NCBI RefSeq assembly: GCF_003711515.1
Contig: NW_021167081.1
Span: forward strand, 2,660,483-2,724,482
DNA from: Sodiomyces alkalinus F11
Taxonomy: Eukaryota > Ascomycota > Sordariomycetes > Glomerellales > Plectosphaerellaceae
Reading direction: 5' to 3'
Length of the DNA stretch: 64,000 nt
The notes under the pieces were generated by a model. It had not been told where the DNA came from. It saw only the letters and a program-made list of their open reading frames with translations, and did no database searches. Below are positions 12,591-63,908 of this stretch, one piece after another (within the stretch, counting starts at the first letter, position 1; each line of letters opens with the position of its first letter). A program made the position numbers and the translations under genes.

Positions 12591-12856
12591 TGGGGCTAGT
12601 ATCTAGGCGATAGTGGTGGTATTATTACGTGGTAACGGTAAGCCTAAGGCAATTACCGTGGGACCTAGGCGGTTTTTTTCTTTTTTATTTATTTATTTAT
12701 TACGCGTATGCAGCCCTAAAGCTATAGCGCGGCGACTCTCGCCCTAAGTGCTAAAGGGTAATAGGAACTAGGTACAGTAAAATAGATCGTACTAAACAAA
12801 GGAAATCCTCCTTAACAATCTGCCTAATAAAACCTAATAGATAAAAACCTAATAGG

Positions 12857-28810: not shown

Positions 28811-31038
28811 TTTTTGTTTTATTTTTTTATTTTCTTTATTCAGTTCGCGCATGCGGCCCTAAAGCTATGGCGCGACGCCTTTTGCCCTATAGGCTCAAGG
28901 CTAGAATAAGCTATAGTAAAGAGTGGAATAGTAGTAAACAAAGGAAATCCTCCGTAACAGTCTGGCTAATATACCGAAAAACAGGTAAAACCCCAAAACA
29001 GAAAACTAGACCGCAGGATCCGAGGTTTACGCCCTATACCACTCCGCCGAGGCTATTTTAGTAGCTACAAGATACGCCTCTAAGGCCTGTATACGTCTTT
29101 TAGTCCCGAATAATAGCGGCAGGGATAGCGGTAGGCTTGCTAGGGCTTCCCGCAGGGCTTTTCGTTCGTTGCTATAAAAAGGGCAGGAAAGGATAAAGTG
29201 GGCTGTATCCTGTATAGAGGAGCCGGGACAGGAACAGCGGTCGTTAGCGCAGTTTCGGGCCCTCTTTTAGTGGGATTTTAGGTATCCGAATCCAGTTTTT
29301 AACTGAATAAAAGCCGACTTTACCCACCTAGGGCCCTGTATCGGCAGTGGTTTTCGGGAAAAGCGGAGGTTATCTCGGACTAGGCGCCTATAAAGGCGGC
29401 CTAAACGCACCGATTTACCCCTTTTTTCCGCCTTTTCCTCTTCGTTCTATAAAGCCTTCCAGTCTCGAACTAGAGCCTTATTAACCCGGCGTTTTAAGTG
29501 GCTAAGGGTAACTAAGCTAATAGATTTAGCAGCTTTTTTAGGGTCTAACGCCTATTTAGCTGCCTTATCTGCTAATTCGTTCCCTTCTATCCCTATATAC
29601 GAAGGGCACCACCATATAGAGACTAAAGTGCCCTGTTATTTAAGATATTGAATAAGGGTCTTAGCCTCTATAGCCCCCTGCGAGGAGCCCTGAAGCTTCT
29701 GAATAGCCGCCTGTGAATCGCTAAAAATATAGCATTTAAGGGGCCTAGGCGACTACTTTAGGGCAGTGTGAAGGGCCTAAAGAATAGCGTTTAATTCGGC
29801 GTCGGCGACTTCGGCAGAGTCCCCTAGGTTAATACCTATAGCTCTACAGGGCCTGCCGGTACTAGCTAGCTGTATAATAGCAGCTATAGTCTGCGGAGGC
29901 CCTGTAGGAGGCCTTATAGGGTGGCCTAGGGAACCGTCCGTATAGACAATAAAGACCTACTCGCCTAGGGACTATTATATATCCTTAAGGGCTTCGAGGT
30001 AGGCTGTTTTTAGCTCTTAGGTGCCGGAGTCGGTATTATCCGTGGTTTTAGGCCTTTCCTTTAGAGGAAAAAAGGGCCTAAGGTCTGCTATAGGCTCGGA
30101 CACCCAGGGGGCCTCCCACCTAGCTGCCGGGCCCTTTGTCCCCTAGGACTGCCCTACTAAGGCTACTAATTCTAGGCCTAGCTTATAAAGCTATGTGGTA
30201 GGCTGTAGGTCTTATAGGCGGGCGAGGGCTTTCCCTAGCTCCCCTAGAAGCTGGCGTCTAATAGGGTGGTTCGGTAAGAACTTTAAGGACCCAAAGGCAT
30301 AAAGCCTATTAGGTTTAGTTAACCGAATCGAAGCTAGAGGGACAGCTGCTTCTAGTTCTAGAGCCCGTATGGGCGCCCTCCTAAAAGCCCCTAGAGCCCT
30401 GACTAGAGCGCCGTATTATAGGCGTTCTAGGCGGTCGACTAGGTGCTTTTTAGTGATTAAGGGTCCTACTATAGCTATAAGCTAAAGTCAGCTAATAAGG
30501 CTATACAGGCTATATATAGCTGCTGTAGGGCCTTAAAAGAAAGGCCCCTCTACGAGCTAGCTAGCCTCTGGAGTCTATTTAAGGCCCTTGTAGCTGAATT
30601 TAGGCGTTTTTCGATATAGGGTTTAAAGGATAGCTTAGGATTAAACTAGATCCCTAGCCACCTAATAGCACCTAGCGTAGGTTTTACTAGGTGCCCCCCT
30701 ATAATAACTGGGGCGTCTTTAATAGAGCGTTTTTGGTGGAAGTGAATAAGCTCTGTTTTATCCGGGTCGAAAAGAACGTGGTTATTATTAGCTACTGCGA
30801 AAAGGGAGGCTACGGCTTTTTCTAGGATCTTATAGTTTTTCCTAGCCGACGTAAACGCTATAGATAGCTGAAAATCGTCTATATAGGATAACTGAAGACC
30901 TGTAAAATCCGGCCCCGCTATAAGCTTCCTAATATAAATTAAGAATAGGATAGGGGAAATCGGGGGGCCTTATAGAACCCCTATATTTAGGGGGGTAGGC
31001 TACTAAACCTGGCCCTTAACGGCTAGTTAGATACGCCT
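28811..31038 (-). mobile_element. LINE B: 3' part of a Tad1-like LINE (RNase H and RT)
   Basis: Minus-strand copy starting with a T-rich tail (28811-28840) and the 3' UTR block ATGCGGCCCTAAAGCTAT (28851-28868). ORF2 parts: RNase H with GIEGNELADKAA-like (near 29575) and RT with YIDDF (near 30868-30882). It is collinear with LINE A 21990-24070 and stops abruptly at 31038, where Gypsy G1 begins; the same LINE probably continues at 47760 and 56751. Divergence from A and C includes many non-RIP changes, so it is a separate insertion. Confidence 0.87.
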
Positions 31039-37149: not shown

Positions 37150-37856
37150 AAAGCCCTAAAATAAGTCCTATTCGGTAAAGTCACGCGAGGCGTAACGTAT
37201 ATTATCCGAGAGGGGCGCGAGGTTGAGCTAAGTATCGACTTAAACACGGGTATATAAGTCGATATTATTAGTCCCGCGCTAGTTAAATACTTAAAGCTAT
37301 AGCTATTAGGCGGAATCTACGCCCCGGCTCTAAAAGGGTTTAATAGCTAAGCGGTGAGTAATCGCAGAGTATACGGCTTAGCCTTTTACTTAGTAGATTC
37401 TAAGGGGAGGCCTAGACTGTTAAAGAGAGTATTTATTTATACGGACCGCCCGAAGGGGTCGGGTTACTTACTACTATCCAATAATAGTATAGGTTAAGAG
37501 AGTATCTTAATTGATATAGCTAACCGAATATTCGGTTTTAGGCCGCCCTTTATTACGGAACTCGAGTGTAAGGCTAGTAGGTAATAAACTAAAGGGTAAA
37601 GCCGTATATTATATACGTTAGTATAGCTACCACTATCGCGGAGAACGCCCTGGATATAATAATTCTATTAGTAGATAATAATAAACTATACTCTAAAGGC
37701 TTATATTTATCTTTTAGTCTATAATAGTTTAAAAATATAATCTTAGAAGGGATAGCGAAGGAATTACCTATACTAAAGGACATAGAATATTCTATTAATC
37801 TATACAAGGGAAAAAAGCCTTTATTCTCCTTTTATACCTATTCTTACCTATATAGC
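37150..37856 (+). pseudogene. G2 protease and pol N-terminal relic
   Basis: VELSIDLNTGIQVDIISPALVKYL begins near 37223 (quoted in part as LNTGIQVDIIS): the retropepsin DTG/DSG box, with the catalytic Asp apparently Asn. The frame goes on through FYLVDSKGRPRLLKRVF to LPILKDIEYSINLYKGKKP (near 37770), which matches the segment just before the RT domain. The SINE enters directly after YLYS at 37856. Confidence 0.65.
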
Positions 37857-38332
37857 GGGGGGGATAGCGTAGGTGGTAGACATGCCTGGTGGCCGCGCAA
37901 GGACATGGGTTCGAATCCCACTCCCCTTAATTATACGCGGTTTTTTTCGCGCGCGACCTTCCTGGAGCTCCTGCATGTTACAGGGGTCCCCGCACACTAG
38001 GAAAGATATTCATCAGCTTACGTGCTAATAAGTGGAACCACACTACCTCCTTCGGTATATACCCTCCTTAGGGGGGGAGGGTACGTACCTATCATATATA
38101 ATTAAGCATACCTACACACTTACTACGATCAAGCCCTAGAGCCTAGGAAACTACGGGGAGCGCGCACCACCACTTAAGGATAAGTCCCGGACAAATAACT
38201 CTGGTTCGCCGATTCTTTACTTTTATATACAGGTTATATAAATAACTAGATACTCGTTATAGGCTTAGTCTTCTTAATAGACTTATACTATAGCTCTAGG
38301 GCTATTTATACGTATTAAATAAAAAAACAAAA
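37857..38332 (+). mobile_element. SINE: tRNA-headed, A-tailed insertion in G2 with 12-bp duplication
   Basis: The 476-bp insert is flanked by TACCTATATAGC (37845-37856) and TACTTATATAGC (38333-38344), one C/T apart. It starts exactly with a tRNA-like sequence (GGGGGGGATAGCG) carrying A and B boxes, has a body of ~330 bp with normal CA/TG content (the only such island of this size inside the transposon block apart from part of the 49900 solo LTR), and ends with AAATAAAAAAACAAAA. The last ~45 bp before the tail (TATAGCTCTAGGGCT...ACGTATTAAAT) match the LINE A/B/C 3' end. It splits the G2 pol frame between YLYS and the RT start. No protein coding was seen. Confidence 0.85.
37858..37928 (+). promoter_or_regulatory. 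SINE head: tRNA-like RNA polymerase III promoter
   Basis: A box TAGCGTAGGTGG (37865-37876) and B box GGTTCGAATCC (37908-37918) fit the tRNA consensus; acceptor halves GGGGGGA and TCCCCTT pair with two G-T; T stem and variable loop (AGGAC) are tRNA-like. The D and anticodon arms pair poorly and no U33 is present, so it is not a working tRNA. A T7 run at 37941-37947 could terminate Pol III early. Confidence 0.75.
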
Positions 38333-38344
38333 TACTTATATAGC

Positions 38345-39319
38345 TTAAGGAGCTAAAGAAGTATATCGCTAAAGGAATAGCGAGCGGTTATATTTAGAAA
38401 TCGATTAGCTTAGCGGGATTATTAATCCTATTTATACCGAAGAAGAATAATAGTCTTTATCTATATATTAAGTATCGTAGACTAAACGCTGTCACGATTA
38501 AGAACCAGTACCTACTCCTACTAATCGGGGAATTACTAGATCGCTTTTCGGCCGCCTAGTAATTCCGAAAGGTTAATATCCGGGATACCTATTACCGGAT
38601 TCTGATTAAGAAAGAGGATTACTAAAAAACTATATTTAGGACACGGTATAGTTATTTTAAGTATATACTTATGCTATTTAGATTAATAAACACGCCTATA
38701 ATATTTTAGGTATACGTTTACTAAGCGCTCCCCGGTCTACTTAATATATACTATATTATATACCTCGACGATATCCTAACCTAGTCCTAAATTAAGGACC
38801 AATATATAAAGTACCTATAAGAGGTCCTTAAGAGGTTATAGCATTACTAACTATATACTAAACTATGAAAATACGAATTCTATAAGGACCGGGGTAGACT
38901 TTCTAGAGTTTATAGTAAGCTTTAGGGGTATTATAATAGACCTAAAAAGGGTAGAAACGGTAGCTGACTAGCTAGCGCCAGAGTCCTTTAAGAACGTATA
39001 AGTCTTCTTCGGATTCCCGAATTGCTATAAGAGATTTATTCAGGGGTACCCGAAAGTTATAATACTATTATCTACGCTACTAAAGGGTAGTAAGGCCGGT
39101 ATAAAGAAAGGACTATTCTATTTTCCGCTAGAGGCTTAAGAAGCCTTTACAAAGCTAAAGGTCGCTATTAGCTAAGCGCCTATTCTACGCGATTAGAACC
39201 CTATATTAGATTCTAGAGTTAAGATAAACGTGTTAGATAAAGTAGTATCCGGAATTCTGAGTTAGAAGTACGACTTATAGTAACGACTAATTACCTACTA
39301 CTCGCGAAAGCTTACCGGT
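38345..39319 (+). pseudogene. G2 reverse transcriptase and RNase H start
   Basis: LKELKKYIAKGIASGYI opens the RT fingers; then LFIPKKNNSLYLYIKYRRLN, a KTIFRTRYSYFKY segment and the catalytic box YLDDIL at 38761-38778 with both Asp intact, then the RNase H approach VLDKVVSG and PYYSRKLTG at 39290-39319. Stops are RIP-type. The rest of RNase H is at 46225. Confidence 0.85.
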
Positions 39320-49899: not shown

Positions 49900-50398
49900 T
49901 GTTACGACCAACGGGCCCAACACATAATATGCAGGAAGGATGCCCTGGTACGTCACGCCGCACCAAGATATAACCAGAAGATGACTTAGGAAGGAGTCAC
50001 GTGTTAGGCCACGTGATACAGGGAAAGGATACTTTAGAATAACATAGGGAGTGATCACCAGGGGCCTGGAAAGCAAAAGTAAATAATGTAGGGAGTGATC
50101 ACTAAGGGCCTGGTGAGCAAGAGTGAATATTATACTATATATACCTTAGTATCCTAGGCCTTACTTCTACTAGAGAATAAGGTATCGATTAATCTAAGTC
50201 TTTACCTAGACTACTATTCTACGCTTAAACCTACCTTATAAAGAAGACGCCTAGTCTTTACGACGTAACTACGACTAGACTACTACGAACGATAGTTACT
50301 GCTCTTTAGTTAATATCCTCTTCTTATTTTGAACTAAAACCTCGACGCCAGTTCCCTATCGGCCGTTATACTATAAAGGACCGGAAGCCGTCGTAATA
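49900..50398 (+). mobile_element. Solo LTR of the G1 family in G4, duplication ATACC
   Basis: Begins TGTTACGACCAACGGGCC and ends GCCGTCGTAATA; ATACC precedes (49895-49899) and follows (50399-50403). It matches the G1 3' LTR in inverse orientation. The first ~200 bp keep many CA/TG (CACATAATATGCAGG, CACGTG twice) while the last ~250 bp are TA-rich. Contains a 46-bp tandem duplication starting at about 50046 and 50091 (TAGGGAGTGATCAC). Confidence 0.92.
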
Positions 50399-57525: not shown

Positions 57526-58800
57526 AGGAATGCTAGCATAGCCACCACGAAGGTACCGCGGTTTATAATAAAGTATAAGAATATCTGTTAATATTACTAA
57601 TAATATCCTTGGAGTATATCCTTCGAGTACCTTCGTACTCGAACAAAGGATATCTTGCCCGTAAGCCTAGACCATTCGAGTTAGATAAAGGAATACGTCT
57701 TAGACAAAGAATTACGTCTTAGAAAAAGGATTACGTCTTAGACAAAGGATTACGTTATTATTACGATCTCCATCCCTTTATAAAGACAGACGATCTTGAT
57801 CCCTTTACAAAGAAGGAAATAATAAAGGATATTAACCCGTCCCCTCGGTTCGGTTCTTCCTTCCTTGATTCTTCTTCTTTATCGCTTTTATATAATCCAT
57901 ACGCGCGCCGAAATTCTACTATTATAATCCTATTATTACTATCTATTTTTCCACCGCTTTTCGCGACTTTCGTCCCTTCCACTTATCCGTAATCCTTAAA
58001 AGGCTATAAGCCCGAAAAAGCTCGACTAAAGTCTTAAAATAAAGTATTCCTTAATTGCCTACGGTCGTAAGTTAAAAAGAGAAGCCCCCGATTCTAAATA
58101 ATAGTCCCTATTCCTCTCCGATATTCCACTTTATATACTACTAACACTTTCTACCTATCTTTATACCGACCTACCTACTTATATTTACGTATCTACGATT
58201 CGAACGATTAGTCGGCCTAGTCATACGCTTATAAATCTATAATCAGAAAGTATATAAAAGCTATAATTACGTCAATTAAATAGGGGCACTCTGTATTCTT
58301 TATGTACAGATACTATAACCACTATACTATAATAGCTATTCTAGTTATACTACTAGAATACCTTTCTGTACTTATAAGTCTTTAGTTCTTTTACTAGGAT
58401 TTCTACTTATATATTTCCGACCATAGAATTCTATATAAATATCGTGTTTTCTACGCGACCGTGAATCCCCTTGTTGCGCAAACACCTATTTTAGGATCCT
58501 CGCGAATAATGAAATTATACCGGCTGCACTTTAGACCCGTTAGAATAAAGGAATACTATCTCTAGAAATAAAGGAATTCTGTTATTCGTACATACGGGTA
58601 TCGTTTTCTTTATCTAGAAAGCCGTGTTCCCTCTTTTAGAATAAAGAACTATATACCGACTCTATTTTAGACCCGCACGAATAAAGGTATCGCTATAGTA
58701 ACCGCCCGTGCATAGAATAAAAAAAAGAATAAACAAAAGGACTATTTTCCTTATTTATATTATAGCTTCTTTAGTTCTTATCCAACATAAATAAATTAAA
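57526..58800. other. Unassigned stretch with a hairpin and short tandem repeats
   Basis: Contains a hairpin at 57617-57652 (TTCGAGTAC-CTTC-GTACTCGAA nested in ATATCC/GGATAT) and four 18-19-bp units of AAAGGATTACGTCTTAGAC at 57685-57755. Farther right are Pyr-rich DNA and three loose copies of TTAGACCCG..GAATAAAGG (58530-58690). No convincing coding; the open minus-strand stretch 57761-57982 has no family features. Confidence 0.5.
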
Positions 58801-60420: not shown

Positions 60421-60986
60421 AGGTTTCAGCACGGGCCCTAATGTATAGGGCGGTAATAGGGTCATCGTCACGGTTCTTATAGCCCTATAATGCTATAAAT
60501 ATAACAGGAATAAAGAAGACTATTCTAGATAAAAGAAAAGAGATAAAGAAATAGATTCTAAAACAAATAAACAAATAGATTCTAAAAGAAATAAAAAATA
60601 GATTCAAGGAATAAAGGGACTGATTCAATAAATAAAGAAATAGTCAGGCACACAGAATACGGTCTTAGAAAATACCCGCTTAAAGACCCACTCTTTAGGG
60701 GTATAGGTCGTGGAATAAAGAAAAGAAGAACCGGCAGAATAAAGAATAGAATAAAGAGACCGAAATGACCGTCGGAAAAGAATAAATAGAAAAGACAATA
60801 TAACGCTATAGCACTACAGGATAGGTTATATTAACCCCACTGCTTTAAAATATATAAATAGAGATGCTATAAATATATCTAAAGATTATATAGGAGAAAT
60901 ATATAGGTATAAAGCCTATAGAAAAAGCAAGTTAGCTACGCTTATAAATAAACAATCTGTTAATAAATATAAGGAAGTTTCCTACC
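60421..60986. other. AT-rich stretch with short repeats before LINE C
   Basis: CA/TG are less depleted than in neighbours. AATAGATTCTAAAA-type units recur at 60550-60630, and GAATAAAG recurs several times to 60760. No coding or RNA gene was recognised. Confidence 0.4.
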
Positions 60987-63908
60987 TTTTTTTTTAATTC
61001 ATTACGCGCATGCAGCCCTAAAGCTATGGCGCGGCGCCTATCGCCCTAAGGGCTAAAGGCTATCAGAAGCTAGGTATAGTAAAATAGAGCGTAGTACTAA
61101 TAAATACAGGAAATCCTCCGTAATAGTCTTGCCTAATAGACCTAATAGATAAATAAAACCAAAGTAAAATAACTAGACCGCAGAGTCCGAGGTTTACGCC
61201 CTGTACTACTCCGCCGAAGCTATTTTAGGGGCTAAAAGATAGGCCTAGAAGGCCTGTATTCCTCTTTTAGTATCGAATACTAGTGGTAGAGATAGCGGTA
61301 GGCCTGCTAGGGCTTCCCATAGGGCTCTTCGTTTGTTTTTATAAAAAGGGCAGGAAAGAATAACGTATGCTGTATCCTGTATAGGGGAGCCGGGATAGGA
61401 ATAGCGGTCGTTAGCGTAGTTTTAGGCCCTTTTATAGTTGGTTGTTAGGTCTCCGAAGCCGGCTTTTAACTGCGTAAAAGCCAATTTTACCCACCTAGGG
61501 CCTTATATTAGTAGTGGTTTTCGGGAGAAACGGAGGTTATCGCGGACTAGTCGCCTATATAGGCGGCCTAATCGAACCGATTTACCTCTTTTCTCCTCCT
61601 CCTCTTCGTGATTCCACAGGGTTTTCTAGTCTTACATAAGGGCTTTATTTACCCGGCGTTTTAGGTGGCTAAGGGTAACTAAGCTAACGGATTGAGTGGC
61701 TTTTTCGGGGTTTAACGCCCCTTTAGCTACCTTATCCGCTAGTTCGTTCCCTTTTATCCCCACGTGCGAGGGGCACCACCACACGGAAACGGATATGCCT
61801 AGTTATTTAAGGCGTGAAATCAGGTCTTTAGCCTCTATAGCCCACTATAAGGTGCGCTAAAGCTTTTGAATAGCCGCCTGGGAATCACTAACAGTATAGC
61901 ACTTTAGGGGCCTCGGCGTCTGCTCGAGGGCAGCGTAAAGAGCCTAGAGAATAGCGTATAATATAGCGTCCGCGACTTCGGCCGCGGCTCCTAGGTTAAA
62001 GCCTATAGCTTTACAAGGCCTTCCAGCTTTAGTCCACTATATTACAGCGGCTATAGCCTGAGAAGGCCCTATAGAGGGCCTAGTAGGGTGGCCTAGAGAG
62101 CCGTCGGTGTAGAAAACAGCAGCCCATTCCCCTAGGCCTTATTAAAGTTCAGCGAGGGCTTCGAGGTGAGCTGTTTTCTAATCGGGTATATCGGGGCCGG
62201 TATCTATAGGCCGGTATTTAAGGGGGAAAAAGGGTCTTAAGTCCGCTACAGGCTCCGAGGCCCAGGGGGCCTCCCACCTAGCTAATAGACCCTCGATATC
62301 CTAAGACTAACCTACTAAAGCCACTGTTTCTAGGCCTAGCCTATATAGTTATATGGTAGGCTATAGGCTCTAAAGAAGGGCGAGGTGTTCCTCGTTTTCG
62401 TTTAGTAGGAGCTAGTGTCTAATAGGGTGGTTCGGTAGGAATTTTAAAGTCCTAAAGGCATAAAGCCTATTAGACCTAGTTAACCTAACCGCCGCTAGGG
62501 GGACTACTGCTTCGAGTTCTAGGGGTCGTAAAGGGGCCCCTCTAAAGGCCCCTAGGGCCCGGACTAAAGCGCCGTACTGTAGGCGTTCTAGACGGTCTAC
62601 TAGGTGTTTGTTAGGTGATTTAGGGTCCCACCAGAGCTATAAGCCAAAGTCAGCTAAGGAGGCGATACAGGCTGTATATAGCTAGCGTAGGGCCTTAAAA
62701 GAAAGGCCTCTCTTCGAGCTAGCTAGCCTGTGTAACCTGTTTAGGGCCCCTGAAGCTGAATTTAGGCGTTTTTCGACGTGGGATTTAAAGGATAGCTTAG
62801 GATCGAACCAGACCCCTAGCCACCTACTAACACCTAGCACGGGTTTAACTAGGTGCCCCCCATAGTAACTAGAGTGTCTTCTTTAGAACGTCTTCGGTGG
62901 AAGTGAATAAGCTCTGTTTTTTCAGGTTTAAAGAGGACTTAGTTAACTTTTACTACGTCGAAAAGGGAGGCTACGGCTTTTTCTAGGGTTTTACAGTTCT
63001 TCCTAGTCAACGTAGATACTATAAATAGCTGGAAATCGTCGATATAGGATAGCTAAAGGCTATGAAACTCCGGCCCCGCTATAACCCTCCTAATATAAAT
63101 TAGGAATAGGATAGGAGAAACCGGGGAGCCTTATAGAACCCCTATATTTAGGGGGGTAGGCTATTAAACCTGCCCCTCGAAGGCTAATTAGATACGACTA
63201 TTTTCTATAAAAGAGGCTACCTATTTAACTAGGTTCGGGGGTAGTTATAGTTCTTAAAGAGTCCTGAGTAGCTAAGGACGGGCGACGTAATCGAAGGCTT
63301 CTTTAATATCTAAAAATAGTATAGAAATCACCGGATTCTAGCGTGATTTACGCTATTTTTCGATATAGTAGAGGAGGAGAAGGGCCGTATCGATAGCAGA
63401 GCGTTATTTTCTACCCCCTATTTAACTAGGGTGTAGAAGGTCGTCGCGGGTATTAGCTATAAAGCGAAGTCTAGCAGCTATAACCCTCTTAAGGACTTTA
63501 CCTAAGCAGTTTAGAAGGGCTATAATCTAATAAGACTTAGATTTAGAATAGTCCTTCTTCCCTAGCTTCGGTAAAACGACCCCTAGGGCTTCCTTCTAGC
63601 AGGTAGGGTAGTGGCCTGCTAAAAGTAGGGCTGAATAGGCTTATATAAAGAACCCAGGGATAACCTTATAGGCCTGTTAGATCGGTTTTAGGGTAATCCT
63701 ATTAGGCCCTAGGGCTTTTCCCTTAGTAGCTCCGAATATAGCGCGCTGTAGTTTAGCAGCCTAGAGGCTAGGCCACTCCCACGGTCTTCCAAGGCCCTTA
63801 CTGCGTGATCTAGTTAGGCTCTAGGGGCCGTTCGAAGGGTAGGAGCGGCCTAGGCCCCCTGAAGGGCGTATAAATACAGGGGCTTCAGGGGCGTCGGTGG
63901 AGGAAGAA
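60987..63908 (-). mobile_element. LINE C: third Tad1-like LINE copy
   Basis: Starts with a T9 tail (60987-60995) and the 3' UTR block ATGCAGCCCTAAAGCTAT (61010-61027). Collinear with LINE A from its 3' end to the equivalent of 24785: RNase H with YTDGSLG (near 62100) and AD-E-YAI (near 61970), and RT with YIDDF (near 63030-63044). It keeps the 3' UTR without the Gy1 insertion, so it gives the empty-site version of LINE A around 12856/21977. Broken at 63909 by an LTR insertion. Confidence 0.88.

Follow-up and report, generated by a model that had tools for sequence, protein, structure and literature searches.

A SINE of tRNA origin in Sodiomyces alkalinus F11 with a terminal hairpin in common with a resident LINE

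The soda-lake fungus Sodiomyces alkalinus F11 harbours a tRNA-derived SINE (SINE2), a dead copy of which occupies positions 37857-38332 of the 64-kb window (the whole stretch of 64,000 nt analysed in the present study). The final 37 nt before its A-rich tail are homologous to the 3' end of a resident LINE family, three members of which (LINEs A, B and C) lie in the same window. We consider it very probable that the SINE, now extinct, was once copied by the reverse transcriptase (RT) of this LINE by way of the common terminal hairpin. Coordinates of all features are given in Table 1.

Table 1 Features of the SINE copy, the LINE copies in the window and selected loci elsewhere in the genome (positions with a contig label)
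Feature	Position	Strand	Basis or remark
SINE copy, subfamily A, 476 bp	37857-38332	+	Whole-element search of own genome
5' target site duplication TACCTATATAGC	37845-37856	+	
3' target site duplication TACTTATATAGC	38333-38344	+	
tRNA-like head	37858-37929	+	ARAGORN; Rfam RF00005 on same stretch in 4/4 sibling copies tried
A box-like TAGCGTAGGTG	37865-37875	+	
B box GGTTCGAATCC, perfect	37908-37918	+	
T7 run directly behind tRNA head	37941-37947	+	Possible internal pol III terminator
Hairpin in SINE body	38054-38089	+	50 alignment columns around it: A and B consensus 100% identical
37-nt terminal block common to LINE 3' end	38284-38320	+	Hairpin in consensus, damaged in window copy
A-rich tail	38321-38332	+	
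LINE A 3' end	12696-12726	-	3 mismatches; 5'-truncated copy, ~0.16-0.17 kb common to other copies
LINE B 3' end	28839-28869	-	3 mismatches
LINE B RNase H-region (29153-29737) and RT (30502-30993) similarity	29153-30993	-	tblastn, E=9.5e-12 and 2.3e-14
LINE C 3' end	60998-61028	-	Exact match to search string
LINE C, second half of RNase H and region behind	61296-61904	-	tblastn with intact L078 ORF, E=2.7e-7
LINE C RT similarity, two pieces	62508-63778	-	tblastn, E=2.7e-32
L078, L104: uninterrupted GC-rich LINE ORF2	G000:C4:1461941-1462693		987-aa open frame, other family
L118	G000:C4:648327-649545		Tail-only insertion
L119	C4:1103622-1104840		Tail-only insertion

The SINE family and its insertion sites

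The sequence-only reading had described a 476-bp insert between 12-bp target site duplications (TSDs) that differ at one C/T mismatch, with a tRNA-like head bearing A and B boxes at its 5' end and an A-rich 3' end, and each of these features was recovered here. The Rfam tRNA model RF00005 matched the head over its full length in four of four sibling copies tried, with scores of 35.3 and 31.4 bits (both above the gathering score), 27.2 and 25.5 bits; the head of the window copy scored below the gathering threshold. ARAGORN called the window copy tRNA-Gly, and over 56 SINE loci it returned a tRNA in only 33, 22 of which were Thr. Because the call differs from copy to copy, no isotype can be assigned to the head and the glycine identity was dropped. 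Directly behind the head, 37 of 45 SINE copies carry a run of at least four and at most seven T residues, which might terminate RNA polymerase III (pol III) and calls for caution over full-length pol III transcription of the element. In many copies this T4-T7 run is flanked by inverted repeats. The consensus SINEs fold far below their shuffles (z of -5.4 and -5.1), with a z of -2.0 for the window copy. Complete elements measure ~450-520 bp, and the family displays the traits of a SINE2, being short, non-coding and dispersed, with a tRNA-like head, both boxes and independent TSDs. Across the 64-kb window there are no stop-to-stop frames of 150 aa. Short tandem arrays were seen at 57681-57755 (19-bp units), 50038-50129 (44-bp units) and 60536-60643 (24-bp units).

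A whole-element search of the genome (43.4 Mb, 22 contigs) returned 41 matches at 40 loci, non-self matches being 75-86% identical; this count is a lower bound, as 40 of 69 candidates were scored. A Pol I subunit gene on the contig that holds the window is 100% identical to RPA2 of Sodiomyces alkalinus F11 along 713 aa. A further 16 SINE loci were retrieved through the tail, with 32 of 34 tail places fetched, giving a total of at least 56 loci, 44 of subfamily A and 12 of subfamily B. Compared in 50-column steps, the two consensus sequences are 94-100% identical across the first 250 columns, drop to 74, 60, 24 and 70% in the successive steps of the body and recover to 94% over columns 450-499, the closing A-rich piece being 78% identical.

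Copies elsewhere in the genome have TSDs of their own, as the sequence-only reading implied. Strong TSDs (score ≥9) flank 26 of the 45 SINE copies with a complete 5' end, versus 18 of 880 controls in which the 5' flank of one copy was paired with the 3' flank of another, and no TSD was found in 11 of the 45. TSD lengths range from 9 to 17 bp. Some copies are 5'-truncated, including one truncated at position 112 with a perfect 14-bp TSD (L046) and one with a 17-bp TSD containing two differences (L037). All four sampled Gypsy relatives of the flanking sequence have an empty site, running straight through with the duplicated sequence present once. The SINE seems to be inserted in a RIPed Gypsy reverse transcriptase gene (window positions 37720-37856 and 38345-38700), as judged from a reading of the flanks and from RVT_1 matches coinciding with relatives of the flanks.

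SINE insertions with strong TSDs lie in a T|A context in 23 of 26 cases, compared with 1676 of 4076 background sites (41%; p=8e-7). For the LINE the evidence is thin, at seven of ten insertions (p=0.06; 0.05 to 0.27 across six motif definitions), the ten sites being the 12 with a score ≥8 minus two excluded by hand (L111 and L125). Among the three LINE sites outside this context, L054 and L121 can be read as T|A after a boundary shift made post hoc. A TSD score ≥9 was reached by only nine of 23 truncated LINE copies, versus seven of 109 controls.

The shared 3' end and its hairpin

Alignment of the terminal block with the minus-strand 3' ends of LINEs A, B and C held up on re-examination, and in a BLAST search within the window the terminal 45 nt of the SINE matched LINE A (E=1.4e-5). 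Over the last 37 nt, the SINE-B consensus is identical to the LINE consensus at 32 positions and SINE-A at 30; the five B-LINE differences comprise four transitions and one T/A, and A and LINE differ at seven positions. Individual copies agree with the LINE consensus at 17-34 of the 37 positions in A (median 27) and at 28-34 in B (median 31). Relative to the A-rich tail, the block occupies one and the same position in both elements. In neither subfamily did any of 20,000 mononucleotide shuffles of the last 80 nt reach the observed score; among dinucleotide shuffles, one of 5000 did so for SINE-A at 115 nt and none of 5000 for SINE-A at 80 nt or for SINE-B at both lengths. A first dinucleotide run on subfamily A (2000 shuffles) had a top score of 43 versus 39. 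Genome-wide, the tail pattern produced 273 matches, 100 of which were listed, and the reversed pattern none.

Weaker similarity had also been proposed to reach back to about position 38255. This extension found no support: upstream of the 37-nt block, 39-97% of shuffles equalled or exceeded the real score of SINE against LINE consensus in local and global alignments, which is the level of chance. Other SINE copies do keep the LINE-like 3' end, which is present at 39 of the 40 loci from the whole-element search, the exception (L035) ending early. This is the less biased figure for the SINE, since the 70 LINE loci were found through LINE 3' end similarity (30) or the tail pattern (40) and therefore all carry the tail by selection. 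What the alignment shows is homology of the tails; transfer from the LINE to the SINE is suggested by the precedent of other such pairs.

The block folds into a hairpin directly before the A-rich tail, drawn here with CGCGC paired to GCGCG, followed by AU/AU and AGC/GCU. In the RNAfold optimum the outer stem is unchanged, and the inner helix is paired in a slightly altered way around the loop UUAG. The ten drawn pairs are formed in 664 of 700 cells for the LINE (95%), 106 of 120 for SINE-B (88%) and 346 of 430 for SINE-A (80%), and the best slid-register control reached 61%, a comparison that favours the drawn pairs because they were drawn by hand from these same sequences. At one of them (-32/-12), 35 of 43 A copies and 10 of 12 B copies have C-A. 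Folding gives -14.2 for the LINE consensus core, -11.8 for that of B and -10.3 for that of A, values reached by 24, 6 and 9 of 1000 shuffles, respectively. A middle stem pair is U-A in 42 of 43 A copies and C-G in nine of 12 B copies and 67 of 70 LINE copies. This paired difference looks compensatory, with modest support, because it represents one event in which both changes are CpG decay and because, with eight such sites in the stem, a random pair of hits would fall on partners about 1 time in 7.

At two loci (L118 and L119) similarity to other LINE copies starts only 37 nt before the tail. Each insert consists of ~40 nt of this 3' end followed by an A-rich tail; the flanking TSDs are an exact one of 10 bp and one of 11 bp with a single mismatch, respectively. 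The simplest view is that both are LINE copies whose truncation lies immediately 5' of the hairpin; as such they mark the start of copying and do not demonstrate that a template needs nothing but the hairpin. By eye, the surroundings of L119 do not look RIPed. At a further locus on the minus strand (L052; G000:C1:4854923-4855093 and beyond) the LINE 3' end occurs in tandem, in the order tail, A run, another ~64 nt of that 3' end, second A run, with a variant common to both units, suggesting template jumping or slippage.

Taken further, the 37-nt hairpin could be all that the LINE enzyme needs, recognised by its shape more than by its letters. We offer this only tentatively, from the U-A pair of SINE-A as against C-G in the LINE and SINE-B, from the presence of one hairpin on two SINE bodies, and from the two tail-only insertions, which hold little beyond block and tail. 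If it is true, the 37 shared nt would delimit, as mapped by nature, the element that a fungal Tad1-type LINE recognises.

An alternative is that the tail is common by descent only and the hairpin is a passive relic, a relaxed LINE enzyme having accepted any poly(A)-ended RNA. The A-rich tail behind the block in both elements would suit such an enzyme, and the T|A(A) context of the SINE insertions is compatible with simple A/T priming. Against it, the block is kept in both SINE subfamilies despite their unlike bodies and at all but one of the whole-element loci, and one stem pair is C-G in the LINE and SINE-B and U-A in SINE-A; we judge this explanation unlikely.

The probable partner LINE, its decay and a model of SINE mobilisation

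In LINEs B and C, tblastn placed RT similarity, RNase H-region similarity and the tail in this order on one strand, the RNase H match spanning the second half of that domain and what lies behind it. All partner LINE frames in the window are broken, and no intact partner was present among the 150 scored of 978 RT candidates. The partner is likely to belong to the Tad1 clade, its RTs being known as fragments. The top RVT_1 matches were rejected as the partner; most cover ~160 codons of the 205-position model and would appear to resemble the RTs of LTR elements.

The sole uninterrupted RVT_1 match among the same 150 of 978 candidates is a LINE ORF2 of another family (L078). It contains RT and RNase H domains by Pfam, many of its relatives also have endonuclease domains, and it is 74-80% identical to the ten closest relatives listed. 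Its matches in the window are at 27-34% amino acid identity. The RNase H-region match of LINE C corresponds to L078 residues 748-941, the Pfam RNase H domain spanning residues 678-816. The existence of this intact, different ORF2 is a reason to consider that the SINE owed its mobility to some other LINE family of the genome. Against this, the tail block is absent from the 2.2 kb behind the ORF (L104), the one other family examined, which disfavours it as the SINE partner, and the 273 tail-pattern matches fit a large RIPed LINE family; mobilisation by another family is thus very unlikely. Chance or convergence in AT-rich, RIPed sequence, to which the shortness of the common part (37 nt, with nothing above chance upstream) and the single dinucleotide shuffle that reached the SINE-A score might be credited, has a negligible probability given that no mononucleotide shuffle reached the score, that the reversed pattern is missing from the genome and that both blocks hold the same position relative to the A tail.

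Both elements bear RIP-type changes. C-to-T change at CpA amounts to 44% in SINE-A (33 copies), 48% in SINE-B (10 copies) and 32% in the LINE 3' end (66 copies), versus 3-10% at CpC and CpT and 6-15% at CpG in the same sets, and these percentages may be inflated as the consensus rule prefers C and G at mixed columns. Judged by groups of copies, the SINE/LINE pair looks extinct. The sequence-only reading held that the SINE "is or was" mobilised by a Tad1-like LINE. Given the group-level RIP-type changes and the lack of an intact partner among the 150 of 978 RT candidates, "was mobilised" is the right tense; the RT and RNase H-region similarity upstream of the tail supports the remainder, with the shared part reduced to 37 nt, shorter than had been claimed. 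The findings suggest that RIP extinguished both the SINE and its LINE partner.

Under the favoured explanation, copying by the resident LINE through the common hairpin, pol III would presumably have transcribed the SINE RNA by means of its internal A and B boxes. The terminal hairpin of this RNA was most likely what the LINE protein recognised, and that protein would have cut one genomic strand at T|A(A), where priming on the A-rich tail, followed by copying of the SINE into the site, would have left TSDs of 9-17 bp and the occasional 5' truncation. Two subfamilies with the same head and tail and unlike bodies carry the hairpin, and RIP-type mutation afterwards struck SINE and LINE alike.

Relation to known fungal SINE/LINE pairs

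Loose searches on Sodiomyces with transposable elements or SINE showed, among the papers listed, no title on this SINE, and letter strings from the sequence occurred in six papers, none of them on fungal repeats as judged by title; Repbase and most subscription papers were outside the scope of these searches. SINE/LINE pairs have been published from Magnaporthe, Blumeria and Aspergillus fumigatus, and tail sharing of this kind is therefore already known. Mg-SINE/MgL and SINE2-1_BG/Tad1-24_BG are tabulated as tail-sharing pairs of Magnaporthe and Blumeria, respectively (PMC3747384, table entries). Mg-SINE, paired with MgL (MGR583), is likewise a tRNA-derived fungal SINE of ~0.47 kb joined to its LINE by the 3' end (PMC3747384, table entries), and its size and number are given as 472 bp and ca. 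100 copies (PMC5063351, in the text available). Set side by side with it by description, the Sodiomyces family differs in its RIP-type changes. SINE2-1_BG of Blumeria graminis is also a tRNA-derived SINE with a tail common to a Tad1 LINE (PMC3747384, table entries); it belongs to another fungal lineage, and the likeness is again by description.

In Aspergillus fumigatus, a likeness is reported between the 3' terminus of AfuSINE2-1a and the 3' UTR of the Tad-clade LINE I-1_AF. By description, that similarity covers positions 210-335 of AfuSINE2-1a, whereas in the Sodiomyces SINE it covers the last 37 nt only (PMC5063351, in the text available). Stem-loops in common 3' ends have been reported for Tad1 in fungi (PMC5135761, in the passages available). 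A looser parallel is Eg-R1 of Blumeria hordei, a fungal SINE-like element which also has internal poly(T) stretches. In the passages available it is said to be without A and B boxes and made by pol II, unlike the Sodiomyces SINE, which has both boxes (PMC6022598).

The Sodiomyces pair is thus a well-documented further example of known fungal SINE/LINE tail sharing, and as such unsurprising. Its new details are the two subfamilies with one tail, the paired C-G/U-A difference, the hairpin-sized LINE-type insertions and the T-run behind the head. The 37-nt hairpin offers a concrete minimal element for a fungal LINE assay. To the pairs already known from other fungi, the present analysis adds a well-supported SINE/LINE pair in the Plectosphaerellaceae, in which the common part has been narrowed to this hairpin.
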